Assembly: GCA_028875655.1 (NCBI GenBank)
Contig: JAPPCX010000036.1
Location: 1-43,036, forward strand
DNA length: 43,036 bases
Direction of reading: 5' to 3'
Source: Chloroflexota bacterium
GTDB taxonomy: Bacteria > Chloroflexota > Dehalococcoidia > Lucifugimonadales > UBA3495
Part shown: one piece after another, positions 5,460-29,918 of the stretch
Layout of the letters: each line of letters begins with the position of its first letter
Numbering within the stretch: the first letter of the stretch is position 1
Program-made: the position numbers and the translations under genes
The notes under the pieces: generated by a model
Told to the model about the DNA's origin: nothing
The model's input: only the letters and a program-made list of their open reading frames with translations
The model's database searches: none

Positions 5460-5498
5460 AAACGGGTGTTACCCTTCCTGCTGATCCGTTAACTGGAA

Positions 5499-5524
5499 AG
5501 GGGGTGTCCGGTCGGACGCCCCCT
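5499..5524. terminator. Bidirectional intrinsic terminator between argG and argD
   Basis: An 11-base-pair stem, AGGGGGTGTCC (5499-5509) and GGACGCCCCCT (5514-5524), with one G-T wobble and a GGTC tetraloop. ATTATT follows on the plus strand. It sits between two convergent genes and could stop transcription from both sides. Confidence 0.8.
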
Positions 5525-5549
5525 ATTATTGCGACATTGGCGCTCGGAT

Positions 5550-6740: not shown

Positions 6741-6883
6741 GTGTCGTCTGCTCCCTCTTGGCGTTTGATCCCTTTAGGTTTGTGCCAGCCGGGTTGGCGA
6801 CGTACCCCCGGCCCGTCGCCCATTATACGCCTTTATCGTGAGATGGGAGTGATGACGTTGCCGAACCCGCCAACCGCGCCAAC

Positions 6884-6912
6884 TTGACCCCCTTTTACCC
6901 CTGTGCTTTACT
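6884..6912 (+). promoter_or_regulatory. Predicted sigma70-type promoter of the LLM gene at 6975
   Basis: TTGACC (6884-6889), a 17-base spacer, then TTTACT (6907-6912). Transcription would start near 6919, about 55 bases before the coding region. Confidence 0.4.
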
Positions 6913-6974
6913 GGCCGAACGGAAAATCGTTCCTTTGCCGCAGCGAATCGACAACGTTTCAGGGAGCGTAAGTG

Positions 6975-8024
6975 ATGCATTTCGGTATGTTTATGCAGTT
7001 TGAGACCCGTCCGGGCGCGTCGCAGAACGGCGCTTTCGCCGAGGGGTTTGAACTGGTCGATACGGCGGAAGCGTGCGGGCTGGACGGCGCCTGGCTGGCG
7101 GAAATGCACTTCTCACCCGACCGTTCGGTGTTGTCGTCTCCCATCACCATTGCCAGCAGCATCGCCACGCGCACTCGCCGGCTCCGTATCGGCATGGCCG
7201 TGTACGTCCTTCCCTTGAACAACCCCCTCCGCATCGCTGAGGAGGTTGCCACGGTTGACCAGATCAGCGAGGGTCGCTTCGACTTCGGCATCGGCCGCAG
7301 CGGCTTCGCGCGCTCCTACGACATCTACGGCGTTCCCTACGCCGAGAGCCGCGAGCGCTTTCGAGAAGCCCTGGACATCATCATGCAGGCATGGCGGGGC
7401 GAGCCGTTCTCATACGAGGGCAAATACCACCAGGTGGCCAACGCCACCGTCGCGCCGCTGCCGTATCAGAAACCGCATCCGCCCTTCCGCATGGCGGCGA
7501 CGACTGCTGAAACCTTCCCCCGCGCCGGCGAGGACGGATACCCGATCTTCGTGGGCCTGCGCGGTATGGACATACCGGAACTTCGGGACAACCTGAAGCA
7601 ATACCGGAAGGCATGGCGTGAAGCCGGCCACGAGGGAGATGGCGACGTTTCGCTCCGGGTGCCGGTGTACCTCGGGCTGACGGAAAAAGCGGCGGTTGAA
7701 GAGCCCTTCGAGAGCATCCAGAACTACTTCGGACGCATGGGCCGTCTGTACGCCGCCGACTCCGGTTCGGCCGGCATCCAGGCGACGGAGTTGCGTGACC
7801 AGCGCGCCGCCCGCCTCTCTGCTCTCAGCTACGACGACATTCTGGAGACCAAAGTCGCCTTTGGAACCCCGGAGGGCCTGGTGGACCGATTTACCGAACT
7901 CCAGGAGGAACTGGGGCTGGATGGCGTCGTCGCCGAACTCAACGCCGGCGGCAAGATCCCACACGAAGCGGTGGTTCGCAATATAAGGCTGCTCTGCGAT
8001 AGAGTGTTGCCGTCCTTCAAGTAA
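6975..8024 (+). CDS. LLM-class flavin-dependent oxidoreductase (luciferase-like monooxygenase)
   Basis: A 349-residue bacterial-luciferase-fold (TIM-barrel) monooxygenase using FMN or F420. Recognisable features are GLDGAWLAEMHF near the N-terminus, RLRIGMAVYVLPLNNPLR, the flavin-region pattern DQISEGRFDFGIGRSG, and the SRERFREALDIIMQAW helix typical of the family. Residues PPFRMAATTAETF match the usual strand-plus-loop around the substrate pocket. Either GTG 6972 or ATG 6975 could initiate; ATG is preferred because AGGGAG at 6961-6966 is eight bases upstream. It is the first of three LLM-family genes in the window and lies upstream of several redox genes on the same strand. The substrate is unknown; relatives oxidise alkanals, alkanes, sulfonates or terpenes. 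Confidence 0.9.
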   Translation: MHFGMFMQFETRPGASQNGAFAEGFELVDTAEACGLDGAWLAEMHFSPDRSVLSSPITIASSIATRTRRLRIGMAVYVLPLNNPLRIAEEVATVDQISEGRFDFGIGRSGFARSYDIYGVPYAESRERFREALDIIMQAWRGEPFSYEGKYHQVANATVAPLPYQKPHPPFRMAATTAETFPRAGEDGYPIFVGLRGMDIPELRDNLKQYRKAWREAGHEGDGDVSLRVPVYLGLTEKAAVEEPFESIQNYFGRMGRLYAADSGSAGIQATELRDQRAARLSALSYDDILETKVAFGTPEGLVDRFTELQEELGLDGVVAELNAGGKIPHEAVVRNIRLLCDRVLPSFK

Positions 8025-9193: not shown

Positions 9194-10165
9194 ATGAAAG
9201 CCTTACGAATTGAGGAATACGGCAGCGTCGATGTCCTGCAATGGAAAGATGTAGCCGAGCCAACTCCCAGCCCACACCAGGTGTTGATCGAGGTGGATTC
9301 GGCCGGCGTGAACTACGCAGACATAATGCGGCGACAGGGCAACTACCCCGGCCCTGACCTGCCGGCCACCCTGGGCCTGGAAGCGGCCGGCACCATCACG
9401 GCGCTCGGTTCCGACGTTACCGACGGCCGTCTTGCCGTGGGGCAAAAAGTGATGGCCATGGGGCCGCAGGGGCAGGCGGAGTACGTGGCGGTCAACCACA
9501 ATTTCGTCTTTCCTTATCCCGACGACATCGACCCGGTCCAGGCCGGTGGAATGCCCATCACTTTCCTCACCTCGTACCATCTGCTGAAGTCGCGTGGCGC
9601 GATGCAGCCCGGCGACACCGTGCTGATCCAGGCCGGCGCCTCCGGCGTTGGAACGGTGGCGATACAGCTGGCCAAGGAATGGGGCGCGCGGGTCGTGGCC
9701 ACGGCCTCAACCGAGGACAAGCTTGAACTGTGCCGCTCTCTCGGAGCGGACATAACCATCAACTACACCGAAGTGGACTTCGAGGACGAGGTTAAGTCGC
9801 TTACCGACGGTCGGGGCGTCGCGCTGGTGCTGGAGTGCGTCGGCGGGCCGGTGCTGGAAAAGTCGGTGCGATGTGTGGCATCCTACGGGCGTTTAGTCAG
9901 CTACGGCAACGCCAGCGGGCAGCCGGCCAACCTGTCTGCCGCCGACATCACCACGCTGAACCGCACAGTCGTCGGTTTCAGCATGGGCCGGTCCCCCATC
10001 GGTTCACTGGACCACCAGGGCGCAATGAACGACCTGATCCCGATGATCACCGGCGGGAAGCTGAAACTCATCGTTGACCGCGTCATGCCCATGTCGCAGG
10101 CCGGCGGCGCTCACCAGCACCTAGCCTCCCGCGGCACCCGCGGCAAGGTCATCCTGACGCCATGA
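9194..10165 (+). CDS. NADPH:quinone oxidoreductase (zeta-crystallin-like MDR)
   Basis: A 323-residue medium-chain dehydrogenase/reductase without the zinc-binding cysteines, as in the quinone oxidoreductase branch. The N-terminal GroES-like domain has SAGVNYADIMRRQG and LGLEAAGTI. The Rossmann domain carries VLIQAGASGVGTVAIQLAK (AxxGVG NADP motif), then ATASTEDKLELCRSLGAD. The C-terminus ends in the family pattern ASRGTRGKVILTP. ATG 9194 has CGGGAG nine bases upstream; an in-frame TTG at 9170 is less likely. The gene overlaps the following methyltransferase by four bases (ATGA), so the two are translationally coupled. It likely reduces a quinone or an enone-type substrate. Confidence 0.9.
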   Translation: MKALRIEEYGSVDVLQWKDVAEPTPSPHQVLIEVDSAGVNYADIMRRQGNYPGPDLPATLGLEAAGTITALGSDVTDGRLAVGQKVMAMGPQGQAEYVAVNHNFVFPYPDDIDPVQAGGMPITFLTSYHLLKSRGAMQPGDTVLIQAGASGVGTVAIQLAKEWGARVVATASTEDKLELCRSLGADITINYTEVDFEDEVKSLTDGRGVALVLECVGGPVLEKSVRCVASYGRLVSYGNASGQPANLSAADITTLNRTVVGFSMGRSPIGSLDHQGAMNDLIPMITGGKLKLIVDRVMPMSQAGGAHQHLASRGTRGKVILTP

Positions 10166-11013
10166 CTACTGCCGCATCCAATTATGCCGGCGTGTACGAT
10201 GCTGCGCTGGCGGCGGACCGGTTCTCGGACCACCAGATGCCCGGGGACCACTGGGCGGACATGGCCGAGATGTTCCGGCTGGATCCCAGGCGGCCCAAAG
10301 ACGCCAACCTGTCGGTGTTGGCCTCCTATCTGGAGCCTTCGGACGTCCTGCTGGACGTCGGTGGTGGCGCGGGCCGCGTTTCCCTGGCGCTCGCCGACTG
10401 CGTGCAGGAAGTCGTGCTGATCGAACCCTCGGAGAGCATGCGGGAGCAGTTCGTCATTGCGCGGGAGCAGGCCGGCATCACCAATGCTCGCATCGCTGCC
10501 GACTGGTGGATGGATTCCGACGAAACCGGCGACGTGATACACCTCTCAGACGTCACCTATTTTGTGAGAGACATAGCCCCGTTCATCGCCAAACTCCATA
10601 ACTCGGCGGGCCGGCGCGTCATGATCGAGTTGTGGCGACCGACGCCCGGCGACATGGGTTCCGTGCTGGAGAGCGTAGTCCTTGGCGAAACGCCGCCCCG
10701 CTGGCCCGGGCTGCCGGAACTCGCTGCCGCGCTGTGGGAGATGGGACTGCTGCCTGAGATTCGCCCCTTGCCCGATGAACCCTGGTGGCTGACTGACGCT
10801 GAACGCGGGCTTTCGGATGCGGATGCAGTCGCACTGGCGATGCGATGGCTGGATGCCGAGGATGAAGAAACACGCGCCGCCGTGTCCAATAAGCTGGACC
10901 AGGTTTTTGACCGCACGCCCAATGGGTTAACGCCGCGCTGGTTGAGCAGCCCGAGGGCGGTTCTGCTCACTTGGGAGACCGATGGGATACCATTGGGTAA
11001 ATCGGGAGGGTGA
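10162..11013 (+). CDS. SAM-dependent methyltransferase (class I)
   Basis: A 283-residue class I methyltransferase. The SAM-binding motif is LLDVGGGAGRVSLAL near residues 57-71, followed by the acidic end of strand 2 in VVLIEPSESM. The rest (VIHLSDVTYFVRDIAPFIAKL, then RRVMIELWRP) fits the family's strands 4-5. Its ATG overlaps the stop of the quinone oxidoreductase, and the next gene starts two bases after its own stop, so it sits in the middle of a compact three-gene unit with two redox enzymes. The substrate is unknown; a small molecule handled by the flanking oxidoreductases is a reasonable guess. No membrane segments. Confidence 0.85.
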   Translation: MTTAASNYAGVYDAALAADRFSDHQMPGDHWADMAEMFRLDPRRPKDANLSVLASYLEPSDVLLDVGGGAGRVSLALADCVQEVVLIEPSESMREQFVIAREQAGITNARIAADWWMDSDETGDVIHLSDVTYFVRDIAPFIAKLHNSAGRRVMIELWRPTPGDMGSVLESVVLGETPPRWPGLPELAAALWEMGLLPEIRPLPDEPWWLTDAERGLSDADAVALAMRWLDAEDEETRAAVSNKLDQVFDRTPNGLTPRWLSSPRAVLLTWETDGIPLGKSGG

Positions 11014-11014
11014 T

Positions 11015-12007
11015 ATGGAGCGCATCGGGGTAGCGTTCACGGGCGGAGGCATGTCGCCCCCGGATGTGGTGCGCTGCGTACAACTCGCCGAGGATCTGGG
11101 CTACGAATCCGCGTGGGTGGCGGAGGGCCACGGCGGCGACCAGTTTTCCATCCTCACCGCCTGCGGGTTGGCGACGTCCCGAATCAAGCTGGGCACCAGC
11201 ATCAGCAGCGTATTTGTCCGCAGCGCGCCGACCATCGCCATGGCGGCGGCCTGCGTCGATCATTACTCGCAAGGCCGGTTCATCCTCGGCCTGGGCAGCA
11301 GCCACAAGGTCCAGGTGGAACCGGAGCACGGCCTGGAGTTCTCGGCGCCGATTCCGCGAGTCCGCGACACCGTTGACGTGGTGCGCCGGCTGCTGAGGGA
11401 CGGAAATCTGGTGGACTATCATGGCGAGGTCACCAACATCCAGTCCTTCGACCTGCATTTCCCGGTATTTCGGCCGGATCTGCCCATCTACCTGGCGGCG
11501 GTATTTCCCAGGATGCTGGAAATCGCCGGCGAGATCAGCCAGGGGATCCTGCTTACCTGGTGCACGCCCGAACATGCCCGAACCGCCGCCCGGCACGTCG
11601 CGGCCGGCGCCGGCCGGGCAGGTGTCGATCCGGCATCCGTAGAACTGGCGACGCTGCTGTCGGTGGCCGCAAACGGCGCCGGAGATGGCGGGATGCGTCG
11701 CGTCGCCGCAACCTACGCCGGCCGATTCCCGCGCTATCGGCGGTTGATGGCCGAGGCCGGCTTTGCCGACGAGGTGGAGCTGGTGCGGCGCGCGTGGCGA
11801 GCGGGTAACGTCGCAGACGCTGAACGGCTGGTGCCCCAGGGTCTGATTGACCGTATGTCGCTGCCCGGCGATCCGGTTGCCCGGAAAGAAAGAATGGCTG
11901 AATACCGGGGCGCCGGCATCACGCTGCCGATTATCGCCCCCAGGGTGTCGGGCGAAAATGCCGCCGCGTCAGCGCAGGCAATCATCCGCGCCAATGCGCC
12001 GGCGTAG
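11015..12007 (+). CDS. LLM-class flavin/F420-dependent oxidoreductase
   Basis: A 330-residue luciferase-like TIM-barrel oxidoreductase. The N-terminus has VAFTGGGMSPPDVVRC and LAEDLGYESAWVAEGH; then IKLGTSISSVFVRSAP, and HYSQGRFILGLGSSHKVQ, the flavin-binding strand region. The C-terminal half is alanine-rich helix. The overall pattern is nearer to the F420-dependent (methylene-H4MPT-reductase-like) branch than to the first LLM gene, but the cofactor is not decided by sequence. ATG 11015 is chosen over in-frame ATG 10982 because GGGAGGG at 11004-11010 precedes it and the upstream alternative overlaps the methyltransferase. It ends the quinone oxidoreductase-methyltransferase-LLM unit. Confidence 0.88.
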   Translation: MERIGVAFTGGGMSPPDVVRCVQLAEDLGYESAWVAEGHGGDQFSILTACGLATSRIKLGTSISSVFVRSAPTIAMAAACVDHYSQGRFILGLGSSHKVQVEPEHGLEFSAPIPRVRDTVDVVRRLLRDGNLVDYHGEVTNIQSFDLHFPVFRPDLPIYLAAVFPRMLEIAGEISQGILLTWCTPEHARTAARHVAAGAGRAGVDPASVELATLLSVAANGAGDGGMRRVAATYAGRFPRYRRLMAEAGFADEVELVRRAWRAGNVADAERLVPQGLIDRMSLPGDPVARKERMAEYRGAGITLPIIAPRVSGENAAASAQAIIRANAPA

Positions 12008-12021
12008 CGCCCCCTACCCGC

Positions 12022-12060
12022 TCATCCTGAGCTTGTCGTCATCCTGAGCTTGTCGAAGGA
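12022..12060. repeat. Tandem copies of TCATCCTGAGCTTGTCG repeat
   Basis: Two adjacent copies of a 17-base unit (12022-12038 and 12039-12055); the second extends into AAGGA. The motif CTGAGCTTGTCGAAGGA is a common dispersed intergenic repeat in bacterial genomes. A diverged single copy is at 36388-36409. It lies between the convergent LLM and cupin genes. Confidence 0.75.
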
Positions 12061-16577: not shown

Positions 16578-17386
16578 GGGCCATCCACAGATACGTCGGC
16601 CACGGAAGCCGACGGCGTTCCTTCGTCCGATGGTTGGGAATGGGAGATCTACGACCTCAGCATAACGGCACAGGAATTCACCCAGAAGCAGGTGGACCGG
16701 CTGGTTCTGGATTCCCAGGAGGAAGGGAGCCCCGCGATTTTCGCCGGGGGACTGTACCACTGGCTCGCCAGGGACCTGTGGTGGTGCCCCATCCCCCGCC
16801 AGTCTGCGGGCGTTGGGCAGCGCGCCACAGCGGGGTGCGCTGCCACGGGGCCCTTCGGAGGTGATGAAACCCCATGACGACAACCCATCATTCCCCCCGA
16901 CCGCGTAACGCCCGCCTGCTGCCCACATCGCCGTGATTGAGCATTTCGGCTCCTGTAGTTGCATTCGCCACAGGCAGCCTTCTTTGACGAAAGGCCGGGG
17001 CATGGGTTCACAAAGGTGCCCTGATGCTTCCTGGCGGTGGTCGGCGGCGGTGCCAGCGAGTCGGCGAAACGGGTTGATTAAAGACAACGGGTCCTCCCGG
17101 CCTGCTCACCGGTAGTCCGTCAGCGGCGAAAGTGTGTGGATAATGGGTGCCCTTGCCAGCGTCATGCTGGAGCGCATCAGGTAACTGTGCCGCCGATTCA
17201 AACAGCTGGCCATGGGTGCCCACAGGTCCTCGCCAGCCCGTTCCCTGACCCTTCATCCCTCGTCCGACTACCGCCGACGTTTCCCTGCGGTGGATTCGAA
17301 CTTGGGCGCGAGTGTTTTTCAGCAGGACCGTGGACCCGGCAAATTCGCCTCATCAACTCTGAACAGTTACCTGTTTCGGCTTTTTG
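16578..17386. other. Gene-poor region, possible coding relics
   Basis: About 800 bases between the RND remnant and the DUF1800 promoter. One plus-strand frame is open from about 16590 to 16877 and includes a protein-like stretch (WEWEIYDLSITAQEF, then TQKQVDRLVLDSQEEGS). It follows two stops, lacks a convincing start and turns low-complexity, so it may be a decayed gene. The minus-strand frame around 17008-17256 is also open but matches no family I recognise. No insertion-sequence ends were identified. Confidence 0.45.
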
Positions 17387-17415
17387 TTGACATTCGACTT
17401 GGCCAATCCTAATAT
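17387..17415 (+). promoter_or_regulatory. Near-consensus sigma70 promoter of the DUF1800 operon
   Basis: TTGACA (17387-17392), exactly 17 bases, then TAATAT (17410-17415). Transcription would start near 17422, giving a leader of about 49 bases. It is the best promoter match in the window and suggests strong constitutive expression. Confidence 0.8.
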
Positions 17416-17470
17416 GCTGCGTATCTGCGCTTGGCTGAGTGTACTGGGCTCGATAAACGGAGAGGTGGTA

Positions 17471-18886
17471 ATGTCCCACCAAGAAGACATTCGATTGATG
17501 GCCCATTTGATGAGACGGGCAGGCTTCGGTGATACCCGTGAGGAACTGGAGGAGCGTGTCTCCAAAGGCTACGAAGCCGTGGTCGAGGAGCTTCTGTATC
17601 CAGAGCGGCAGCCGGCCATAGACGACGAACTGCTGTACCGGATCTTCCCGGGTTATGAGGGGGCTGGGGCGCTGCCAATAAATCAGGCCAATTGGGTGTT
17701 CCGGATGATCAACACCCAACGTCCTCTGGAAGAGAAGATGGCCCTCTTCTGGCATCAGTTGTTCGCCACCGCCAACTCCAAGGTGGACAATCCACTGGAG
17801 CTGACTCGCCAGATTGCCATCTTCCGTGAATACGGATTGGGTACTTACCGCGACCTCCTGGTAGAGGTCTCAAAGTCGCCAGCCATGATCTTCTGGTTGG
17901 ACAACCAGGGAAATCGTGACGGCGCCATAAATGAAAACTGGGGGCGGGAGCTGTTGGAGCTTTTCTCCCTCGGAGTCGGAAACTACTCAGAGGATGATAT
18001 CAGGGAAGCAGCCAGGGCCTTTACCGGATGGACGATTGCCCCAAAGATTCCCCGTAATCCTTACGGTCGTTTCCATTGGCTATTCGACTACAAACCTGAA
18101 GACCACGATGATCGGGAGAAGACCTTCCTGGGCCATACCGGGAACTTCAATGGCGAAGACATCGTGGACATTATTGCGGATCAACCGGCTACGGCCCGGT
18201 TCCTGGCCCGTCACCTCTACAGATTCTTCGTCGCCGACGAGCCACATGTCGCCAGTTGGAACGTTACACCACCAGTTGACCCTGAAGCCATCGAGTTGTT
18301 GGCGGATGCCTACAATGAATCCCGTGGCGACATCCGGTCTATTTTACGAGTGTTGTTCAACTCAGAGTTCTTCAAGAATGCCCGCTTCGCCCGTGTGAAA
18401 AGCCCGGCTGAATTGATCGTTGGCACTGTGCGTATGGCGGGCGACTATCAAGGCTTCAAGCCAGGACTCAACAACCTGGCGTTGGAGTGCGGTTGGCAGG
18501 GACAGGCGCTGCTCAATCCTCCCAGCGTGGAGGGTTGGCACACCGGCTCAGAATGGATCGACCCCGGCGTTTTGATGCGCCGGGTGAACTTTGCCGCGAG
18601 GATATTTGGAGACATCTCACTACCCGGCGTGCAATCTATCGTCAAACGGGTGTTGGTGAACGTGCATGTGCATGGGGATCATTCCCCCGAGGCGATAGTG
18701 GAAGCTTGTCTCGATGCGATGGGACCGTTGGAAGTCAGTAGGGCCACCCACTCTGAATTGATTGCCCATGCCGAAAAATGTGGCGATCTGGCCTGGAGCA
18801 CCCACGAAGAATTCAGGGCTACAATGCGCAATGTGAGCAGGATCTTGACCTTGATTGCCGCCTCGCGAGAATATCAGTTTGCCTAG
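17471..18886 (+). CDS. DUF1800 domain-containing protein
   Basis: A 471-residue DUF1800 protein. Typical features are the N-terminal LMRRAGFGDTREELE, then FWHQLFATANSKVDN, the family core NWGRELLELFSLGVGNYSED followed by ARAFTGW, and the C-terminal region with LLNPPSVEGWHTG and WIDPGVLMRR. The biochemical role of DUF1800 is not established; it is very often encoded next to DUF1501, as here. ATG 17471 is chosen because AGAGGTGG directly precedes it and the in-frame upstream codons overlap the promoter. I see no signal peptide, whereas many relatives are exported. It is the first gene of a three-gene operon. Confidence 0.92.
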   Translation: MSHQEDIRLMAHLMRRAGFGDTREELEERVSKGYEAVVEELLYPERQPAIDDELLYRIFPGYEGAGALPINQANWVFRMINTQRPLEEKMALFWHQLFATANSKVDNPLELTRQIAIFREYGLGTYRDLLVEVSKSPAMIFWLDNQGNRDGAINENWGRELLELFSLGVGNYSEDDIREAARAFTGWTIAPKIPRNPYGRFHWLFDYKPEDHDDREKTFLGHTGNFNGEDIVDIIADQPATARFLARHLYRFFVADEPHVASWNVTPPVDPEAIELLADAYNESRGDIRSILRVLFNSEFFKNARFARVKSPAELIVGTVRMAGDYQGFKPGLNNLALECGWQGQALLNPPSVEGWHTGSEWIDPGVLMRRVNFAARIFGDISLPGVQSIVKRVLVNVHVHGDHSPEAIVEACLDAMGPLEVSRATHSELIAHAEKCGDLAWSTHEEFRATMRNVSRILTLIAASREYQFA

Positions 18887-18921
18887 GCAAGCGCATACAA
18901 CTGATGTAGAAGGAAATTAAA

Positions 18922-20058
18922 ATGGCATCAACCCATAAAGACCCCGTGCTGGTCGTGCTGGAGCTGACTGGGGCCAACGACTACCTCAATACGATTGTTC
19001 CTTATAGCAATCCTCTGTATTGGGATAACCGGCCCAAGGTCCACATCCCTGAAGACCAATTGCTGCCCATAAATGACCAACTGGCATTCCGGGGCGGTAT
19101 GGAGCCGTTGAAAGAAATCTACGACCAGGGCAACATGGCAATCATTCACGGGATCGGATTTGAAAATTCACCCCGTTCGCACTTTCGCGCCATGGACATC
19201 TGGCATACCTGCGAGCCGGATTCCATCGGGATTGACGGCTGGCTCGCCAAGGTCATCCGGGACTTGGATCCTGGCGGCGAGAACGTGCTGAAGGGAGTTA
19301 ACTTGGGCCAGGGCCTGCCTCGGGCAATGGCCATGAAGGGGGTTCCTGTTACTTCTGTCAACCACCTTCCTTCCTACGGCGTACTCTCATCAAATCCGGG
19401 AATCGCCTCCGAGCAAGAGCGGAACCAGTTGTTGGAGACCTTTGCCCGCATGTACGCTCCCACCATCGGCGCCGGACCGACCATGGAGTATCTGGGACAG
19501 GCAGGACGGGATGCATTGCGAGGAGCCGACATCATTCGGGTTGCTCCCGAAACCTATTCTTCAAGCGTAGAGTACGCTAATAATGCCATCGCCAGGCGCT
19601 TCAGAGACGTGGCCCAAGTGCATCTGGCCGGCCTGGGCGCCCAGGTCTTTTACACCTCCCACGGGCCCTTCGACACCCACTATGACCAGCTGGGACCACA
19701 TGAAAAACTTTGGACGGAAATTTCCGTCGCCATACGCGATTTCTTCGACGACCTGCGTGAGCACGACGCCTCAAACGAGGTGGTTGTTATGTTGTTCAGC
19801 GAGTTTGGGCGCCGCGTCCGCGATAATGGCACCGGCACCGACCACGGAGCGGCTGGGGTAGCGTTCGTCATTGGCGACCGGGTGTATGGTGGAATGTACG
19901 GGACCTATCCCTCGCTGAAACCGGGGGATCTCACTCAAGGAGACCTGGCGCCCAACTATGATTTCCGCGGCTTCTACTCCACGTTGGCGGAAAAGTGGCT
20001 GGGACTCGACCCGGTCCCTATCGTCGGTGGACACTTCGAGCAAATGTCCTTCGTGTAG
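18922..20058 (+). CDS. DUF1501 domain-containing protein
   Basis: A 378-residue DUF1501 protein, a family related to the alkaline-phosphatase/sulfatase fold. Visible signatures are VLVVLELTGANDYLNTIVPY at the N-terminus, PRSHFRAMDIWHT in the middle, HGPFDTHYDQ and the C-terminal VVVMLFSEFGRRVRDNG followed by TDHG; the conserved Asp/His residues are candidate metal ligands. ATG 18922 follows AGAAGGAAAT. Most DUF1501 proteins start with a Tat signal (twin arginine); this one does not, so it may be cytoplasmic or exported together with a partner. It is the second gene of the operon, 35 bases after DUF1800. Function not established. Confidence 0.92.
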   Translation: MASTHKDPVLVVLELTGANDYLNTIVPYSNPLYWDNRPKVHIPEDQLLPINDQLAFRGGMEPLKEIYDQGNMAIIHGIGFENSPRSHFRAMDIWHTCEPDSIGIDGWLAKVIRDLDPGGENVLKGVNLGQGLPRAMAMKGVPVTSVNHLPSYGVLSSNPGIASEQERNQLLETFARMYAPTIGAGPTMEYLGQAGRDALRGADIIRVAPETYSSSVEYANNAIARRFRDVAQVHLAGLGAQVFYTSHGPFDTHYDQLGPHEKLWTEISVAIRDFFDDLREHDASNEVVVMLFSEFGRRVRDNGTGTDHGAAGVAFVIGDRVYGGMYGTYPSLKPGDLTQGDLAPNYDFRGFYSTLAEKWLGLDPVPIVGGHFEQMSFV

Positions 20059-20093
20059 CTTCAGGACCCAAAATAGTTCGCAGGAGAGGGGAT

Positions 20094-21092
20094 ATGCTGA
20101 CCACCGTCGCCGCCGGCCGGGTGTATGACTACAGCTACTGCATAGGCATGTACAGTCAGGACGGCAGGGGATTTTGGGCTCCCCAAGATTTCGTCCTGGG
20201 ACCCAACGGTCGAATTTATGTGTTGAGCCGCGGTGTGGAACAATTGGGTCAGCGTGTCACCAAGATCAACTTTGATCACGATTTTCAAGGACAGTTCGGC
20301 TCCGTCGGCGAGGGCGACGGGGGCTTCGTTTGGCCCCGGTCAATTGATTTGGACCGCCACGGCCGAGTGTTCCTTTCGGACGAGTATCTCAACCGGGTAA
20401 CCATTTACAGTGAAGAAGGTAGTTATCGGTATCACTGGGGCAGGCCCGGCAGCGAAGACGGGGAGCTAAACGGACCGTCGGGAATTGCTTTCGACTCCCA
20501 GGGAACCGTTTGGGTGGTGGACAGCTTGAATCACCGGGTGCAGAGTTTCAGCCAGATCGGTGAGTTTCAGTCCAAATTCGGGCAGCAAGGTGACGGTGAC
20601 GGAGATCTGGAGATGCCATGGGGCATCTGCATCGACCGTCAGGACAACATCTACGTCGCGGATTGGGGAAATAACCGGGTGCAAAAATTCGCCCCTACTG
20701 GAGAGTTGCTCGTTAAGTTCGAAGGCTCCAGCGCCGGGGTGGGTTCGCTCAAAGGGCCATCCGGTGTAGCTGTGGACTCAGATGGAGATGTATATGTAAC
20801 CGACTGGGGGAACCACCGAGTCCAGATCTACGCCCCCGACGGCCAATATATTACGGCGCTGGTCGGTGACGCTCAAGAGCCTTCGCCATGGGCCCAGACC
20901 TACATCGATGCCAATCCGGATATCATCAAAGCCAGGCGGCGGACAGATCTGGAGCCTGAATGGCGGTTCCGGCGGCCAGTGGCTGTCAACGTTGACGCAG
21001 ACGACCGGATCGTAGTTTTGGAGTCCTACCATCACCGGCTTCAAATCTACAACAAGCTGAAGGATTACGAGGAACCCTCAATAAACTTGTAG
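20094..21092 (+). CDS. NHL-repeat beta-propeller protein
   Basis: A 332-residue protein of tandem NHL repeats forming a predicted six-bladed beta-propeller. At least five repeats are readable: WPRSIDLDRHGRVFLSDE with NRVTIY; GPSGIAFDSQGTVWVVDS with HRVQSF; MPWGICIDRQDNIYVADWG with NRVQKF; GPSGVAVDSDGDVYVTDWG with HRVQIY; RPVAVNVDADDRIVVLES with HRLQIY. Such propellers mostly bind proteins, peptides or carbohydrates. The start at ATG 20094 follows CAGGAGAGGGG; the frame is open upstream only as DUF1501 shadow. There is no signal peptide. It ends the DUF1800-DUF1501-NHL operon (gap of 35 bases), so it probably works with those two proteins. Confidence 0.92.
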   Translation: MLTTVAAGRVYDYSYCIGMYSQDGRGFWAPQDFVLGPNGRIYVLSRGVEQLGQRVTKINFDHDFQGQFGSVGEGDGGFVWPRSIDLDRHGRVFLSDEYLNRVTIYSEEGSYRYHWGRPGSEDGELNGPSGIAFDSQGTVWVVDSLNHRVQSFSQIGEFQSKFGQQGDGDGDLEMPWGICIDRQDNIYVADWGNNRVQKFAPTGELLVKFEGSSAGVGSLKGPSGVAVDSDGDVYVTDWGNHRVQIYAPDGQYITALVGDAQEPSPWAQTYIDANPDIIKARRRTDLEPEWRFRRPVAVNVDADDRIVVLESYHHRLQIYNKLKDYEEPSINL

Positions 21093-22312: not shown

Positions 22313-23353
22313 TTATCGAGCCTGATCATCGGGATAGAATTGCGCGCAGTATGCGCGGTAGGCCATGATGTCCACGTCGGCGGCGCAGAGGCGTGGGCGT
22401 GGCGAGTACTTTTTCCGGCTCCAGATCACCATATCCTGCTCAACGTCCCGCCTTTGCTGCAGCGCCATGAATCTGTTCAGTATGGGCGCGCGCAGCCGGG
22501 TCGGAAGAAATCGCAGCCCGGCAATTGGCCGCTTCGGTTTCCGTATCTCCCGCGTCTGTCCGACGAGGGACAGGTCGATGAGCGTGCCGTCAACCGGCGT
22601 CGCCAGCACCCACAGGCGCATGTCCGTGCCTATGGACCTTTCACGAATCTCCACGAATGAATAGCCCAGCCCGAAGACCTGCGTTCTGGCGGACACGTCG
22701 AACGTGAGGGTGACCATTCCGGCAATCTTCCGCGTTCTTTTGAAGTCGAAACAGTTCTCGAGAAAGTGACCCTCCACCGACAGCTCATCAACGCGGCTGA
22801 CGTTGTCGTAGCCGTGAACGTATTGCAGATGGGCCAGATCCACCGAGTTCTCGGCGACCTCCTGGGGATGGCCGGGGAAGCGCAGTGTCTGGACGTGCAA
22901 GTCGCACCAGCCGGCCTGGTCCAGGTTGTCGGCGGGCAGATTCCATCGCGGCGCCCGCCCGTCAATGCCCCACCAGGCGAAGATCAGCCCCAGGATCTCC
23001 TGTGTCTCGAATACCTGCAGCCTCGCCGTCCTCGGCGCGGGCGCAAAGGGAGTGGCCACGCACCGCCCGCTGACATCGTACTCGAACCCATGGAAGGGGC
23101 AGATCAGGCGACCCCCGCAGACTCGTCCCCCGGCATCCCGTCCCAGGTCGGCGCCCAGGTGCGGGCAAGAAGCTCTGGCGACGCAGATGCGTTCGTTCTC
23201 ATCACACCAGGCGATGATTTGTTCGCCCATCCACGTCTTTTGCATCAGCTCGGCTTTCAGAACAGCCTGACGGCTGGCAACGAAATACCAACCTTCGGGG
23301 AACGGAGAACTCAGCTCCAGGTATGTGGGTTGACTGCTTCGGGTGGACATCAT
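22313..23353 (-). CDS. Rieske [2Fe-2S] non-heme iron oxygenase
   Basis: A 346-residue Rieske oxygenase alpha-subunit-like enzyme, predicted to activate O2 for hydroxylation, demethylation or desaturation. The Rieske cluster ligands are Cys63-x-His65 (ASCPHLGADL) and Cys85-x2-His88 (LICPFHGFEY). The mononuclear iron site is ENSVDLAHLQYVHG, with Asp172, His175 and His180 in the D-x2-H-x4-H pattern. Its size and single-subunit look resemble the steroid-acting group (KshA, cholesterol 7-desaturase, SdmA-like C-4 demethylase) more than aromatic-ring dioxygenases; this is inference. It lies 70 bases downstream of the sterol methyltransferase homologue on the same strand, so they are probably co-transcribed. 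ATG 23353 or 23350 may start it. The reductase partner is not in the window. Confidence 0.9.
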   Translation of the reverse strand: MMSTRSSQPTYLELSSPFPEGWYFVASRQAVLKAELMQKTWMGEQIIAWCDENERICVARASCPHLGADLGRDAGGRVCGGRLICPFHGFEYDVSGRCVATPFAPAPRTARLQVFETQEILGLIFAWWGIDGRAPRWNLPADNLDQAGWCDLHVQTLRFPGHPQEVAENSVDLAHLQYVHGYDNVSRVDELSVEGHFLENCFDFKRTRKIAGMVTLTFDVSARTQVFGLGYSFVEIRERSIGTDMRLWVLATPVDGTLIDLSLVGQTREIRKPKRPIAGLRFLPTRLRAPILNRFMALQQRRDVEQDMVIWSRKKYSPRPRLCAADVDIMAYRAYCAQFYPDDQAR

Positions 23354-23423: not shown

Positions 23424-24470
23424 CTATCGACCTGTGGACGGCTTGCGAACCAGGAAACAGTACAACGGCGTGAATATCCCGGCCTTGCCGCCGGCGACAT
23501 AAGCGTTGGCGGTTTCGTTAAGCAGTCGAACGACTTCCGCAGAGCCTTTCGGGAACAGCCCCAGCGTTCCGGCCAGCCGGGACGCCCCGATGAATGCCTT
23601 TCGCCCCAGCGGAGTCCGGTAAAAGGCGTTGACGACGGTCCTGCCCCGGGTTTCCATGGGCTGATACCAGGGCGTCGTGCCGTCGTCCGACGCCACGCCC
23701 AGGTCCGCCCCTTCGACGACCTGAAACCCCACTGCTTCCAGCGTCCGGTTGACCTCCGCAGTGGTTGCAATATCCTTCAGCACTATGCCCTGCATCAGGT
23801 CTCGCTTGATGGCCTGATGACGGCTGTCATCGGTGTCAAACTTCTCCGTCATGCACATTTCCTGGCCCCAAAAGAGAGATCCGGGTTTCAGCACGCGGTA
23901 AATCTCGGCGAATGCGCCCGCCTTGTCCGGCGCGTGGCACGTTGATTCGATGGCGTATCCGCGGTCAAAGGTGTCGTCAGCGATGGCGCCCATGTCCATG
24001 AAGCTGCACGCCAGGTAATCAACCATGTGATCCAGTCCCGCCTCGGCGTTCAGCGCTTTCGCCTTGTCCAACTGCATTTCATTGTTGTTGACGCCCACGA
24101 CCCTGACCCCGGCCTCCCGGACGACACGGCGCATCGGGCCGCCGATCCCGCACCCGACGTCAATCACAGTCATGCCCTGCCGCAACTCCAGCTTGGCCAT
24201 CATCAGCCGCTGGTGGCGAATCTTGGACTCCTCCAGGCTCTCCTGGGGTGATAGCGGCGCGAAGTGCAAAGACTCGCCCCAACTGAACACCATGAATTCG
24301 CCGCAAAGGTCGTAGTATTCCCTGACGGTTTCAGAGTGGTTGTAACCCGCCCCGTCAGCATTCGGCCCGGATATTCGGTCGCTCCATCCGTTGAACCGTT
24401 GCACTCGGTGGGCGACGTCCCGCCCGCGATACGCGGCCTTCAGCCCGTTTGAAAGTTTGCGGAGTTGCAC
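23424..24470 (-). CDS. Sterol C-24 methyltransferase-like protein (SMT/ERG6 family)
   Basis: 348 residues strongly resembling sterol 24-C-methyltransferases, which methylate the sterol side chain with SAM. Conserved SMT regions in order: SWGESLHFAP (residues 63-72, replacing the usual YxYGWGxSFHF), SAM motif VIDVGCGIGGPMRR (102-115) with VVGVNNNEMQ, YAIESTCHAP (172-181), and EMCMTEKFD (204-212). The C-terminal sterol-MT domain has the diagnostic TPWYQPM, FYRTPLGRKAF, then LGLFPKGSAEV, VAGGKAGIFTP and a final VRKP. Length matches ERG6-type enzymes. It starts at GTG 24470 with AGAGGGA just upstream, and has its own promoter at 24511-24540. Bacterial SMTs are rare. It could methylate sterols made elsewhere in the genome or taken up. 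No cyclase is nearby. Confidence 0.9.
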   Translation of the reverse strand: MQLRKLSNGLKAAYRGRDVAHRVQRFNGWSDRISGPNADGAGYNHSETVREYYDLCGEFMVFSWGESLHFAPLSPQESLEESKIRHQRLMMAKLELRQGMTVIDVGCGIGGPMRRVVREAGVRVVGVNNNEMQLDKAKALNAEAGLDHMVDYLACSFMDMGAIADDTFDRGYAIESTCHAPDKAGAFAEIYRVLKPGSLFWGQEMCMTEKFDTDDSRHQAIKRDLMQGIVLKDIATTAEVNRTLEAVGFQVVEGADLGVASDDGTTPWYQPMETRGRTVVNAFYRTPLGRKAFIGASRLAGTLGLFPKGSAEVVRLLNETANAYVAGGKAGIFTPLYCFLVRKPSTGR

Positions 24471-24621: not shown

Positions 24622-24687
24622 GGTTGTTATAGAAAAGCTACGACTTTGGTTGTCCGGCGGCCACTTCGATGGCCAGGAGAAATGCCG

Positions 24688-26721
24688 ATGGTTGCGTCTG
24701 CGGGCGATTCGGCTACGCTTTCGCTAAGCTTGCCCGAAGAACTGCTCCTAATGTTGCTCAACGAAGAGACGGGCTACTTCCATCAGGTGCCCGGGTGGGC
24801 CTTGAACTGCGCAGTCATCGGCGCCGTGCTGGCGGAGCTCTCGCTGCTGTCCCGCATCGACACCGACCTCGAATTCCTGTTCGTGGTGGACGCTACCCCT
24901 ACCGGCGACCCCATCCTCGACCATGTCCTGCAGGAAATCGCTGACGAAACGGAGGGGCGCAACGCCCAGTACTGGGTCGAACGGCTGGCGCCCAACGCCG
25001 AGGACATCATCGACTCCATTCTCGAACGCCTGGTTGATGGGAAAGTCCTGGTGCGCCACGATGGCGACTACTGGACATTGTCCCCCACGGCTTGGCGGGC
25101 GGGCGTTCTGGGCGGCCCTGCCGATGGCTACGCCCATCAGTTCGTGAAAACCCGCATCAGTGATTTTATCTTCAACAACATCATCCCCGAGCCGCGGGAC
25201 ATCATCATTATCTCGCTGGTCAACTGCTGCGATGTGCTGCGCTTCATGTACCTGCTCGACGACGACGCGACCACGCGCATCCGCTTCATCTGCAACATGG
25301 ACTTGATTGGCCGCTCCATCGCCGACGCGGTCACCGACAGCATCGTCTCCCCCGGGCTCCGCCGTTCCGCCCTGGTTCGGGAAATACCTACCGTATCGCT
25401 GCGCCGTCTTGCGCTCAATCGCCACCTGCGCAACGGCAACCTGCCGGCGTTATTCGCCGACCTGGCCAAAGAGTACGGTCCGGTCTTCCAAGTTCGCCCA
25501 CCCTTTGCCAAACGGCTGGTTTTCCTGGCTGGGCCGGAGACCAACCGCTGGGCCCATCGCAACGGGCGGATGTACCTGCGCGCCCGCGATTACTTTGAAG
25601 GCTTTGAGAAACTCTACGGCGCCTCCGGCGTTTTGCCTTCACTGGACGGCGGCGACCACTTCCGCCTGCGCAAGTCCCTTCAGCCGGCCTATTCTCGCGA
25701 GCGGCTGTCTGAGCAGTTGGACCAACTCTATTCTTACGTCCGCACCCACATGGCCAACTGGGCCGTCGGAGACACTTTCACCGCAACCGATATGTCTCGG
25801 TACCTGGTCAACGCTCAACTCTCGCCCCTATTCATCAGCATTGAATCGCAGGACATCCTCGGCGACCTGATGAAATACAAGGAGCGCGCCCTCAGCACTC
25901 ACGTCGCCCGGGTGATGCCCAGGTTCATGCTCAATACCCCGTCGATGCGACGCCGTACGAAGGGAGTGGACGTTCTGATGGACCGGGTCCGACGCAGTCA
26001 TACGCCTGCTCAGCGCGCCGGACGCCCACGGGACCTGGCCGACGACCTGCTGAGCCTGAACGTCAGCGACCCCCAGCTGGTTCCGGAGTCCAATCTGCGC
26101 TTCGCCTTTTCCGCCGCCCTCATCGCCAGCGTGTACCTGGGCGACGCTCTCAGCTTTGCGGTGTACGCCATGGCTTCACAGCCCGAACTCTACGAGCAAA
26201 TCCGCAGCGAAGCCGACGCGCTCTTTGACGGCGGCGACCCGAATGGCGAGGACTTCAACCCTTCCACAATCGACGTTACTCATCGCTTCCTCATGGAATG
26301 TCTGCGAATGCACCCCATTGTTCCCATGTCCCTCCGGAACGTGATGAACTCCTGCGAAGTTGAGGGCCATTTTCTTCCGGTGGGGGAACGGATTACCATT
26401 GCCCAGACCGCCGCCCACTACATGGATGACGTGTTTCCCGACCCCTTCAAGTTTGACATTGACCGCTACCGGCCGCCGCGCAATGAGCACCTCAGCCCCG
26501 GCTACGCCCCTTACGGAGTAGGCACGCACATCTGCCTCGGCCAGCGCTGGATGGAGTTGCAACTGGCCATCAACGTGCTGATGATTGCCCACCACTTCAC
26601 CCTTGAAGTGCATCCCACCAAGTACCGCGAAAAGATTAAATACAGCCCCTTGCCGTCGATGAAGCCCAGCAAGAAGGTAAAGTTCCGCATCACCGAGCAG
26701 AGGCGCGAAATACCAGCCTGA
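24688..26721 (+). CDS. GPP34 (GOLPH3-like)-cytochrome P450 fusion protein
   Basis: 677 residues joining two families. Residues about 10-215 are a GPP34/GOLPH3-like domain: LSLPEELLLMLLNEETGYF, ALNCAVIGAVLAELSLLSRI, DATPTGDPILDHVLQEIA, AQYWVERLAP and PEPRDIIIISLVNCCDVLRF. From about residue 245 a cytochrome P450 follows: a Glu-x2-Arg motif at 537-540 (ECLRMHP) and the heme loop YGVGTHICLGQRW with axial Cys616 (first aromatic Tyr instead of Phe). In the I-helix (ALIASVYLGDALSF, about 477-490) the usual acid-Thr pair is missing, so O2 activation may differ. GPP34 domains bind membrane phosphoinositides in eukaryotes, so this one may dock the P450 at a membrane holding a lipid substrate. ATG 24688 has AGGAG eight bases upstream. 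It is divergent from the SMT gene and convergent with the MMPL transporter (6-base gap). Confidence 0.9.
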   Translation: MVASAGDSATLSLSLPEELLLMLLNEETGYFHQVPGWALNCAVIGAVLAELSLLSRIDTDLEFLFVVDATPTGDPILDHVLQEIADETEGRNAQYWVERLAPNAEDIIDSILERLVDGKVLVRHDGDYWTLSPTAWRAGVLGGPADGYAHQFVKTRISDFIFNNIIPEPRDIIIISLVNCCDVLRFMYLLDDDATTRIRFICNMDLIGRSIADAVTDSIVSPGLRRSALVREIPTVSLRRLALNRHLRNGNLPALFADLAKEYGPVFQVRPPFAKRLVFLAGPETNRWAHRNGRMYLRARDYFEGFEKLYGASGVLPSLDGGDHFRLRKSLQPAYSRERLSEQLDQLYSYVRTHMANWAVGDTFTATDMSRYLVNAQLSPLFISIESQDILGDLMKYKERALSTHVARVMPRFMLNTPSMRRRTKGVDVLMDRVRRSHTPAQRAGRPRDLADDLLSLNVSDPQLVPESNLRFAFSAALIASVYLGDALSFAVYAMASQPELYEQIRSEADALFDGGDPNGEDFNPSTIDVTHRFLMECLRMHPIVPMSLRNVMNSCEVEGHFLPVGERITIAQTAAHYMDDVFPDPFKFDIDRYRPPRNEHLSPGYAPYGVGTHICLGQRWMELQLAINVLMIAHHFTLEVHPTKYREKIKYSPLPSMKPSKKVKFRITEQRREIPA

Positions 26722-26727
26722 CCCTCA

Positions 26728-29202
26728 TTATCCTTGCCGCTCGTCGCGCCGCTGAATGTCGTCAATCGCCACGTCCAGCTCGCTCCACATTCGCTCTACC
26801 ATGGAACGCAACCGCACGTTCTGGTATGCGCCCCACACCACCATCGCCGGCAGTACCACCAGCACCGACACTACCAACGAATAGACGATGGTAATGGTCG
26901 CCGTAATTCCGAACTGCTGAGACGCTAGCAGGGGCGAGGCGATTAACACTCCGAATCCGAACGCCGTCGTCAGCGCGGAGCCCAACAGGGCCGAACCGGT
27001 GGTGGTCAGGGTCTGAATCGCCGCTTGCTCCGGGTTGCGCGTGCGGGTGTACTCCTCCCGGTAGCGATGAATCACGTGGATGGTGTAGTCAACCCCGATG
27101 CCAATGGACAGCGCGGTAATGATTGATGTGATCAGCGAGTAGGGGATGCCCAGCAGCGCCATGGTGCCCAGCACCCAGATGAGGACGAGCACGATTGGAC
27201 CCACCGCAATCAACCCAAACGCCGGCTGGCGCAGCGTCATCCAGAAAAAGATGCTCAAAATGCCCAGGGCTATGGCGACGGTGGCGCTGATTGCCTCAGT
27301 CTGCCGGTCCGTGATGGCGTCCGTGACGGTAACGGCGATGATTGACTCCGAAGTCGCCGTGATGTCCTCGTCATCGCCAAACCAGAGGGCTTCGATGTCC
27401 CCCTGTATCTCCTTCGCCAGCGCGGCGTCGCCCGAATAAGCCGGGAACTGGATCAGCATCGTATCAAGGCCCGATGGGTCGTTAACCAGGAGACGCGCGG
27501 CCTCGGGGTCTTCCGCCTCAATCCGATCCACCAGCTCCTGCATCAGCGCCGGGTCAAGCTCCACCCCTGCCGAGGCTTCCCGGAGCAGCGCGGCGAGTTC
27601 GGGGTCGTATTTGTCGCCGGGCCTTCCGCTGTCGTTGGTCCAATCGTGGACCAGCAAGTCGTACGACGCCAGGATCGGCCCCGACGCCGCGCCTGGGCGG
27701 CGCTCTTCGTCCTGGAAGGCGGCGGTGAGGTCCCGAAGGTTGAGCAGCGTGCGGGTCTCTGTTACCTCGGCCTTCACCAATACGCTGGCCATCTCCGTCG
27801 AACCGCCCACGGCCGCGTCGAGGGTGTTCATATCTGCAATCACGCTCCCGCCCCTGGGGAGGATGTCGCGGATGCTGAATTCGGACTTCAGGCCGGTGGC
27901 GGCGTATCCCAGGCCAATGGTTATCAGCAGCACTGCGACCAGGCAGGGCGCCGGCCAACGGGTAACCCACCTGCCAAGCAGCTCCGCCACTCGGGGAATG
28001 CCGGGCAGTGCGTTGGCGATTGGGCGGGCGGGCCGCAGAGTCCCCCGGGACTCTCGCCGTCGGTCGATAACCGTGCGCCCGGCCGGAATCAGAGTCAGCA
28101 TTACTATCAGGCTCATGCCCACTCCGAGCCCGGCAACAACTCCGAAGTCGCCAATCACCCCGATGGGCGAGAATAAGCCCGCCAGCAGGCTGACAATCGT
28201 CGTGACGGCGGCCAGGGTCACGGGAATGGAGACTTCGCGAAAGCCGACGCGGACGGCCCGTAACACCGACTCCCCGAGGACGCGCTGCTCGCGGTAGTGA
28301 GAGATCGCCTGGATTGCGTAGTCCACGGTCAGGCTGATAATGATGACGGGCACCATGGTAGTGAGCGAACTGGGCGGCCCGATGAGGCCCAGCGCGTTCG
28401 GCCCAAGCCAGCCCTCTGCTCCCACAACCCAGACTATCGCAAAGATAAGTCCCAACAGCGTCAGCAACATGTCCGAGATGGCGCGCGTGAAGAGCAGGAG
28501 CAAACCTGCGATCAGCAGCAGCGCCAACCCCAGTAGCGGGCCTAACCCCGACTCCGTAGCCTGCTTGTACTCGTCCTCAATGACCACCGGCGACAGGCTG
28601 CTCACGCCCAGTGACCCGTCTTGCCCCGTTGCCAGCTCGTTGATCCTGCGCTCGGCGTCCGCAATCTGTTCGTCACCCGTGTCGCGCAGGCGGATGACGG
28701 CGATTGCCACCGGCGCGCCATCCACGTCCGTTCCGGTCATCGCCGCCAGCGCCGCCTTGATTTCCGGAGGGCTGGGCGCGGCCTCGATTTGCTCCGGGGT
28801 GACGGACTCGAAGCTATCCACCTGGAGCAGGGCTTTGGCCAGCAGGGAGGGAGCGGCGACGGGATTGGTAGGGGCCAGCAGGCCACTCACGGCAGGATCA
28901 GCGGTAACGCTATTGACCAGGCTGTCCATTTGGGAGAGGCCGTCCGGCGTGAGCGCCTCCCCACGGAAGACGAGCGTTACCACGCGAACTTCGCCCGAGT
29001 CTCCGAACAGCTCATCAATCTCTTGGGTCACGTTGGCGATGGGGTGTCCGGGCGGAAGAAACGCCACGTCGGCCCCTTCGGTTGGCGGCGCCCGCAGCGT
29101 CGCCCCGTAACCCAGCAAAACGGTTACAACGAATAGAGCGATGAGCGTGATATACGGGCGGGCCGTGATTAGCCGGCTCATCGTGTCGAGTATCTTGGTC
29201 AT
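26728..29202 (-). CDS. MMPL/RND-superfamily transporter (HpnN/NPC1-like architecture)
   Basis: About 824 residues with two similar halves. Each half has one membrane helix (YITLIALFVVTVLLGYGAT; APCLVAVLLITIGLGYAAT), a large extracytoplasmic loop and a five-helix MMPL bundle. The first bundle has MVPVIIISLTVDYAIQAISH and the second IITALSIGIGVDYTIHVIHR; the GxxxDY pattern is the proton-relay region of the RND/MMPL superfamily. This is the layout of hopanoid transporter HpnN, mycobacterial MmpL and eukaryotic NPC1/Patched, whose five-helix units are sterol-sensing domains. Start ATG 29202 (or 29181) has no clear ribosome-binding site; the frame runs further upstream across tRNA-Leu, which cannot be coding. 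Its position beside the SMT, Rieske and P450 genes suggests lipid or sterol transport across the envelope; the cargo is inferred. Confidence 0.9.
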   Translation of the reverse strand: MTKILDTMSRLITARPYITLIALFVVTVLLGYGATLRAPPTEGADVAFLPPGHPIANVTQEIDELFGDSGEVRVVTLVFRGEALTPDGLSQMDSLVNSVTADPAVSGLLAPTNPVAAPSLLAKALLQVDSFESVTPEQIEAAPSPPEIKAALAAMTGTDVDGAPVAIAVIRLRDTGDEQIADAERRINELATGQDGSLGVSSLSPVVIEDEYKQATESGLGPLLGLALLLIAGLLLLFTRAISDMLLTLLGLIFAIVWVVGAEGWLGPNALGLIGPPSSLTTMVPVIIISLTVDYAIQAISHYREQRVLGESVLRAVRVGFREVSIPVTLAAVTTIVSLLAGLFSPIGVIGDFGVVAGLGVGMSLIVMLTLIPAGRTVIDRRRESRGTLRPARPIANALPGIPRVAELLGRWVTRWPAPCLVAVLLITIGLGYAATGLKSEFSIRDILPRGGSVIADMNTLDAAVGGSTEMASVLVKAEVTETRTLLNLRDLTAAFQDEERRPGAASGPILASYDLLVHDWTNDSGRPGDKYDPELAALLREASAGVELDPALMQELVDRIEAEDPEAARLLVNDPSGLDTMLIQFPAYSGDAALAKEIQGDIEALWFGDDEDITATSESIIAVTVTDAITDRQTEAISATVAIALGILSIFFWMTLRQPAFGLIAVGPIVLVLIWVLGTMALLGIPYSLITSIITALSIGIGVDYTIHVIHRYREEYTRTRNPEQAAIQTLTTTGSALLGSALTTAFGFGVLIASPLLASQQFGITATITIVYSLVVSVLVVLPAMVVWGAYQNVRLRSMVERMWSELDVAIDDIQRRDERQG

Positions 29203-29263
29203 GGAGATACAAAGAACCGGTGTAGCTGCTCGTTCCCAACGCGGCGGCAGCGCGTCGAGAGGT

Positions 29264-29350
29264 TGGTGCCGAAGGTCAGACTCGAACTGACACGGGATAT
29301 TATCCCACCGGTTTTTGAGACCGGCGCGTCTACCATTCCGCCACTTCGGC
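29264..29350 (-). tRNA. tRNA-Leu (anticodon CAA)
   Basis: Minus-strand class II tRNA. The acceptor arms are GCCGAAG and CTTCGGC. The anticodon stem CCGGT/ACCGG encloses the loop CTCAAAA, anticodon CAA (reads TTG, Leu). The long variable arm (TGGGATAATATCCC) is typical of Leu. The T-loop is TTCGAGT and CCA is encoded (29264-29266). A TATACT -10-like box lies at 29366-29361. Its 3' end faces the MMPL gene, a usual attachment position for integrative elements. Confidence 0.95.
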
Positions 29351-29462
29351 TTCCGAACCAAGTATAGCACGCTTGCGCGGGCGGGCAGCCCCGTGTAGCA
29401 TTGATGTACGAAGCTAGCGACGCTTGTGTGAAAGCACTGATGCACTTCCCGGATGGCATGAT

Positions 29463-29918
29463 ATGGCAAGCATTAAGGACCGGCTGGAAGAGGATATCCG
29501 CAATACCATGCGCGCGCGAAATCGGGAGCGCCTGGATACCCTGCGTTTTCTGAAGAGCCAGATTCAGTTGGCGGAGAAGAACGCCTTGGCCGAGCTGGAC
29601 GATACCGGCGTCACCGACGTAATCGCCAAGCAGGCGAAGGACCGCCGAGAGAGCATCGAGATGTTCGGGCAGGGTGGTCGTTCGGACTTGGTCGAGAAGG
29701 AACAGGCCGCGCTCGCCGTGCTGCAGGAATACATGCCGGAGCAGATGGACGCCGTAGCCATTGAGGAACTGGCCCGCCAGGTCATCGCCGACGTGGGCGC
29801 CACCGGGCCGGGTGATCGCGGCAAGGTGATGGGCCGCATCATGCCCCAGGTGCGGGGCAAGGCCGATGGCAGCGAGGTTAACGCTACGGTATCCCGGCTG
29901 TTGGAATCCCTGGGTTAG
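29463..29918 (+). CDS. GatB/YqeY domain-containing protein
   Basis: A 151-residue YqeY-type protein, the free-standing version of the helical C-terminal tail of amidotransferase subunit GatB. Conserved stretches are IKDRLEEDIRNTMRARNRER, TLRFLKSQIQLAEKNA, the central AKQAKDRRESIEMF and LQEYMPEQMD, and the C-terminal GKVMGRIMPQVRGKADGSEV with NATVSRLLESL. In GatB this tail contacts tRNA; the separate protein is proposed to bind tRNA or support amidotransferases, without a proven reaction. ATG 29463 is chosen as the first codon of the conserved block; no strong ribosome-binding site is seen. Eight bases separate it from purQ, so they are likely in one operon with purQ, the EamA transporter and purL. 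Confidence 0.9.
   Translation: MASIKDRLEEDIRNTMRARNRERLDTLRFLKSQIQLAEKNALAELDDTGVTDVIAKQAKDRRESIEMFGQGGRSDLVEKEQAALAVLQEYMPEQMDAVAIEELARQVIADVGATGPGDRGKVMGRIMPQVRGKADGSEVNATVSRLLESLG

Follow-up and report, generated by a model that had tools for sequence, protein, structure and literature searches.

The GPP34-P450 locus

The window analysed here, the whole stretch of 43,036 nucleotides, holds an unbroken reading frame in which a GPP34/GOLPH3 domain is joined to a cytochrome P450 (Table 1); a TTG codon at 24646 offers an alternative start. This architecture had been proposed in an initial annotation of the same DNA, and both parts are recognised by Pfam above the gathering cut-offs of 29.1 bits for GPP34 and 22.8 bits for p450. 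The GPP34 match (99.9 bits, E 2.5e-28) covers profile positions 1-199 of 201 and agrees with the earlier assignment of this domain to the first 215 residues, while the P450 match reaches 121.8 bits (E 4e-35) and contains the ExxR motif and heme-cysteine loop that had been claimed for it. Profile comparison with solved structures pairs the GPP34 domain with human GOLPH3 (3kn1, E 1.6e-16) as well as with 2zii, and identifies CYP51 chains as the closest solved relatives of the P450 domain (E 2.9e-21).

Three further genes adjoin the fusion. The sterol methyltransferase homologue (SMT) combines methyltransferase and Sterol_MT_C domains, retains the motifs GCGxGGP and WGxSxHF and is the sole Sterol_MT_C match in its genome; to judge from its family, its substrate is presumably a sterol. 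The Rieske oxygenase, likewise without a second KshA_C match in the genome, has intact ligands for both its cluster and its mononuclear metal, and KshA is the nearest among solved chains; as a candidate SdmA it scored 28.4 bits, below the NF052579 cut-off of 600. The third gene encodes an MMPL/HAE3-type RND transporter with homology to sterol-sensing domains. Elsewhere in the window (17384-21092, + strand), a DUF1800-DUF1501 pair precedes an NHL-repeat protein that somewhat resembles ScyF.

Table 1. Coordinates of the fusion, its motifs and the adjoining genes in the window.
Feature	Position	Strand	Details
GPP34-P450 fusion protein	24688..26721	+	one open frame, 677 aa
GPP34/GOLPH3 domain	24730..25335	+	residues 15-216; Pfam PF05719; profile match to human GOLPH3 3kn1
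Cytochrome P450 domain	25432..26682	+	residues 249-665; Pfam p450
I-helix without acid-alcohol pair	26101..26157	+	FAFSAALIASVYLGDALSF; 38-row alignment
ExxR motif E537-R540	26296..26307	+	R540 invariant, E537 in at least 90% of rows
Heme-cysteine loop YGVGTHICLG	26512..26541	+	residues 609-618; C616 in at least 90% of rows
Sterol methyltransferase homologue (SMT)	23424..24470	-	Pfam Sterol_MT_C 59.7 bits (cut-off 21.7)
Rieske non-heme oxygenase, KshA-type C-terminal domain	22313..23353	-	Pfam KshA_C (PF19298) 86 bits, Rieske 54.8 bits
MMPL/HAE3-type RND transporter, sterol-sensing-domain homology	26728..29469	-	Pfam MMPL 159 bits, Sterol-sensing 42 bits

Distribution and conservation of the fusion

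The same architecture occurs elsewhere: a scan of named genomes by short peptide patterns, which covers close relatives only and does not imply confinement to sponges, returned 42 related loci with the joined frame. Independent assemblies of these relatives retain the frame at 53-91% identity (one stands at 43%), and a sequencing or assembly error was rejected as its origin. Within the window's own order the identity is 63-91%, and by their record titles the loci represent nine phyla: Chloroflexota, Nitrospirota, Gemmatimonadota, Latescibacterota, Verrucomicrobiota, Actinomycetota, Binatota, Bdellovibrionota and Pseudomonadota. The fusion gene is under strong purifying selection, dN/dS between near pairs being 0.07-0.20. 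Its tree requires 16 changes of phylum label against a minimum of 10 and contains strongly supported mixed-phylum groups, which fits spread by horizontal transfer; part of this pattern could stem from misbinned metagenome contigs.

Wherever a source could be traced, the loci derive from sponge-symbiont genomes; six of the 42 have no traced source. Four loci bear SB names, which we take to denote, probably, Ircinia ramosa. Twelve belong, by their isolate names (jk18x/p16x), to the Ircinia genomes of Kelly 2022, whose text names one of them, that of locus L068, as jk18x7bins.13 (PMC9531527). Three come from the Aplysina bins of Slaby 2017, and 17 carry RHO, COS, IRC or APA names compatible with the sponge species in Robbins 2021, codes which its text does not print.

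A second GPP34-P450 family shares the architecture at 32-35% identity to the window fusion. One member lies in the window's genome (C91:292-2307, locus L086; 33% identical) and has a canonical I-helix (AGADTAS); a relative of it, in L095, is adjoined by an SMT-like gene. The Binatia locus L066 encodes two fusions (5261-7282 and 9905-12025), of which the first is 27% identical to that of the window.

Gene context and the source of the substrate

By tblastn, an SMT and/or a Rieske gene lies beside 37 of the 42 relatives (Rieske at 31 loci, SMT at 24), and two of the five exceptions are cut by contig ends. With the window included, 31 of 43 loci carry one of three RND/MMPL transporter families, namely an AcrB-type RND pump (14 loci), one MMPL family (nine) or a second (eight, the window among them), and two types were never seen at one locus. 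In seven further Chloroflexota loci, an orthologue of the window's MMPL gene lies close to the fusion. At L051:4076-6562 and similar proteobacterial loci, the MMPL gene is accompanied by a LolA-like gene and a cluster-10 gene; the latter has no Pfam match and possibly encodes an outer-membrane barrel, and together they hint at transport toward the outer membrane. A flavin amine-oxidase-like gene (cluster 3) occurs near the fusion at 19 of 43 loci (for example L034:12033-13427, + strand); none was detected in the window's genome.

At L035, L039 and L068 the fusion is found with squalene epoxidase-oxidosqualene cyclase, CYP51-like (cluster 16), ERG24 and SdmA-like genes. The epoxidase and cyclase form a single frame (L035:15051-18713, - strand, 1220 aa; also L039, L068 and L074). 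Three of these four copies adjoin CYP51-like and ERG24 genes, and the fused length agrees with the 3765 bases of the LSS alignment in Kelly 2022 (PMC9531527). The three transporter families are absent from these four loci, as far as contig ends allow them to be viewed.

The window's genome differs from those with the full set: neither an oxidosqualene cyclase nor a squalene epoxidase was found in this draft, and de novo sterol synthesis was rejected for it on that basis. Its one squalene-type cyclase has the DIDD motif of the hopene type and lies within an hpn-like hopanoid cluster. Among 14 other fusion-bearing genomes, seven showed no cyclase, two only a hopene-sized cyclase and five the long epoxidase-cyclase frame; all are drafts in which genes can be missed, and each absence is provisional. 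A sterol substrate of the window's cassette would consequently come from outside, and most fusion-bearing bacteria would have to take up their substrate, should it be a sterol.

The hopene-type cyclase and its hpn-like neighbours, together with some similarity of the window transporter to HpnN, would also suit a cassette whose substrate is the bacterium's own hopanoid or some other isoprenoid lipid that it makes. We regard this as unlikely, since half of the 14 genomes show no squalene or oxidosqualene cyclase, the adjacent methyltransferase carries a Sterol_MT_C domain, and the fusion is paired with true sterol genes at several loci. A catabolic role, in which host steroids are oxidised by the KshA-like Rieske oxygenase and the P450 and toxic ones ejected by the pump, is decidedly improbable. 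The nearest solved chain to the Rieske gene and the usual presence of an RND/MMPL transporter are compatible with such breakdown or detoxification; however, a side-chain methyltransferase adds carbon, which argues for the making of a product, and ring-cleavage genes were not recognised among the annotated recurrent neighbours.

P450 motifs and chemistry

P450s usually carry the I-helix motif [AG]Gx[DEH]T, and seven of the eight other P450 frames in the window's genome keep a canonical motif (three P450 genes stand in tandem at C101:28445-32747). In the fusion's own clade (clade A, 38 aligned rows) the helix reads [AT][SA]xY[LVMF]GD in 36 rows, with Y483 and G485 each conserved in 37 and D486 in 36. 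In a register set by sequence alone, neither an acid nor a Ser/Thr occupies the canonical catalytic pair in this clade, with or without a one-residue gap. The fusion thus represents a P450 family that has dispensed with the oxygen-activation motif and retained its heme ligands. As the acid-alcohol pair is lost and the heme ligand kept, the fusion P450 probably departs from the ordinary monooxygenases and from standard O2/NADPH hydroxylation; a redox partner for it was not identified. In other P450s that do without the pair, the CYP74 and CYP152 families among them, peroxides are used or the substrate is rearranged, which favours a non-standard reaction here; candidates are a peroxide-dependent or substrate-assisted reaction, an isomerisation and a desaturation.

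Absence of the pair throughout clade A would equally be expected if the P450 part were catalytically dead and served as a sterol-binding scaffold. We consider this very unlikely given the strong purifying selection on the gene and the retention of ExxR and the heme cysteine; P450-derived scaffolds such as EryCII have lost the cysteine, whereas the fusion keeps C616. Least probable of all is that the fusion is the CYP51-like sterol 14-alpha-demethylase of a de novo pathway with GPP34 as its membrane anchor: CYP51 chains are its best solved relatives and a full sterol gene set exists at some loci, but those loci (L035, L039, L068) already possess a separate CYP51-like P450, the CYP51 I-helix motif is absent from the fusion, and most of the fusion genomes tested show no oxidosqualene cyclase, so that CYP51 identity was rejected.

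Ligand residues of the GPP34 domain

We take the PI4P-contact residues of GOLPH3 to be W81, R90, R171 and R174, presumably at chain positions 32, 41, 122 and 125 of 3kn1 (one constant offset). An alignment guided by 3kn1 places P35, I44, E105 and I108 of the fusion at these sites, with a conserved W37 near P35. The pairing of R90 with I44 bears out the earlier remark that the arginine of the GLRG segment is replaced in AVIG, and the replacement extends to the whole of clade A: the R90 site is V, I or A in all 38 rows, the R171 site E or D in 35, the R174 site aliphatic in most, and none of the three has a basic residue in this alignment. With all three contact arginines replaced, phosphoinositide binding by the fusion is unlikely, and docking through PI4P is disfavoured. 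R156 and R170, both invariant in clade A, could be candidate sites for some other contact. The suggestion that GPP34 brings the P450 to a membrane containing a lipid substrate is therefore retained in part: the neighbouring SMT, Rieske and MMPL genes supply a lipid context, but GOLPH3-like phosphoinositide docking is not favoured by the residues.

Short stand-alone GPP34 genes are present in 36 of 39 fusion-bearing Dehalococcoidia genomes and often accompany the fusion in genomes of Acidimicrobiia. Their neighbourhoods are not conserved and the window's genome has none, and they were rejected as fixed partners of the fusion.

A proposed membrane-tethered enzyme for acquired sterols

Relative to the initial annotation, the reading offered here is narrower on two points, the replaced PI4P-contact arginines and the missing acid-alcohol pair of the I-helix. 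That annotation did not remark on the sterol genes nearby, the occurrence among sponge symbionts in many phyla or the lost I-helix motif. We propose, with a probability of roughly 0.6, that the fusion is a heme enzyme docked at the membrane, part of a cassette for sterol remodelling and export that is shared horizontally and acts on externally acquired sterol. The protein would be a peripheral membrane heme-thiolate enzyme whose GPP34 domain holds a soluble, bacterial-type P450 at the inner membrane face, via contacts with lipids other than PI4P or with proteins. Sterol would be taken from the sponge host or from neighbouring symbionts and modified by the P450 at the membrane; the adjacent SMT would act on the side chain of the same sterol, the adjacent Rieske oxygenase would work on it too, and the MMPL/RND transporter would move the product out. 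A tethered P450, a shared sterol and an exporter would together explain the fusion, its neighbours and the missing cyclase. Alternatively, GPP34 may dock to the cytosolic part of the transporter; GOLPH3 itself binds enzyme tails. Attachment to the membrane by either route is suggested by analogy. Its sterol and lipid-export neighbours, and close copies in nine phyla mostly traceable to marine sponges, make it probable that the fusion helps these symbionts to remodel sterols.

More tentatively, clade A may constitute a new class of membrane-tethered heme-thiolate enzymes that forgo the usual P450 oxygen activation and serve some step in making or exporting sponge-type sterols, shared by horizontal transfer among sponge bacterial phyla and acting on sterols which most of them cannot make; we hold this possible, with the odds against it. 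Whether host or symbiont makes the unusual sponge sterols is an open question with a bearing on the oldest animal biomarkers (Brown 2023, PMC10070321). The cassette points to sterol remodelling and export in many symbionts that have no sterol synthesis of their own, and identifies candidate genes for both. It also offers a lead to the role of GOLPH3-type domains in bacteria.

Comparison with known systems

Like GOLPH3 and Vps74 (PF05719), the fusion has a full-length domain whose profile matches 3kn1 and 2zii; it differs in being bacterial, joined to a P450 and devoid of R90, R171 and R174. The bacterial GOLPH3-like protein SCO4440 is a bacterial GPP34 protein as well, described next to a D-Ala-D-Ala carboxypeptidase gene rather than P450 or sterol genes (PMC12402492). 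With CYP51 and bacterial sterol P450s the fusion shares closest solved sequence and sterol gene context, but it lacks the acid or His plus Thr of their I-helix and, at L035, L039 and L068, sits beside a separate CYP51-like gene. The window transporter shares the RND/MMPL type and the lipid gene context of the lipid transporters BstA and HpnN; its scores of 25.6 and 97.1 bits, respectively, are far under their NCBIfam cut-offs of 1400 and 751.85.

Neither a GPP34-P450 fusion nor GOLPH3 in sponge symbionts turned up in the openly accessible literature searched; as most subscription journals lie outside that scope, this is weak evidence of novelty. The main text of Kelly 2022 does not mention Golgi-type genes (PMC9531527), nor does that of Brown 2023 mention a P450 or Rieske protein (PMC10070321). 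The steroid gene clusters of Ircinia symbionts have an ERG24-CYP51-LSS core that is absent from the window and present in L035, L039 and L068; these clusters and the fusion loci are alike in occurring in sponge symbionts of many phyla, in horizontal transfer, in purifying selection and in having an SMT nearby (Kelly 2022, PMC9531527). Sponge-symbiont SMTs from sterol clusters are active on desmosterol, and the window SMT resembles them as a symbiont SMT in a sterol context, a likeness at family level in which the tested subfamilies may differ (Brown 2023, PMC10070321).
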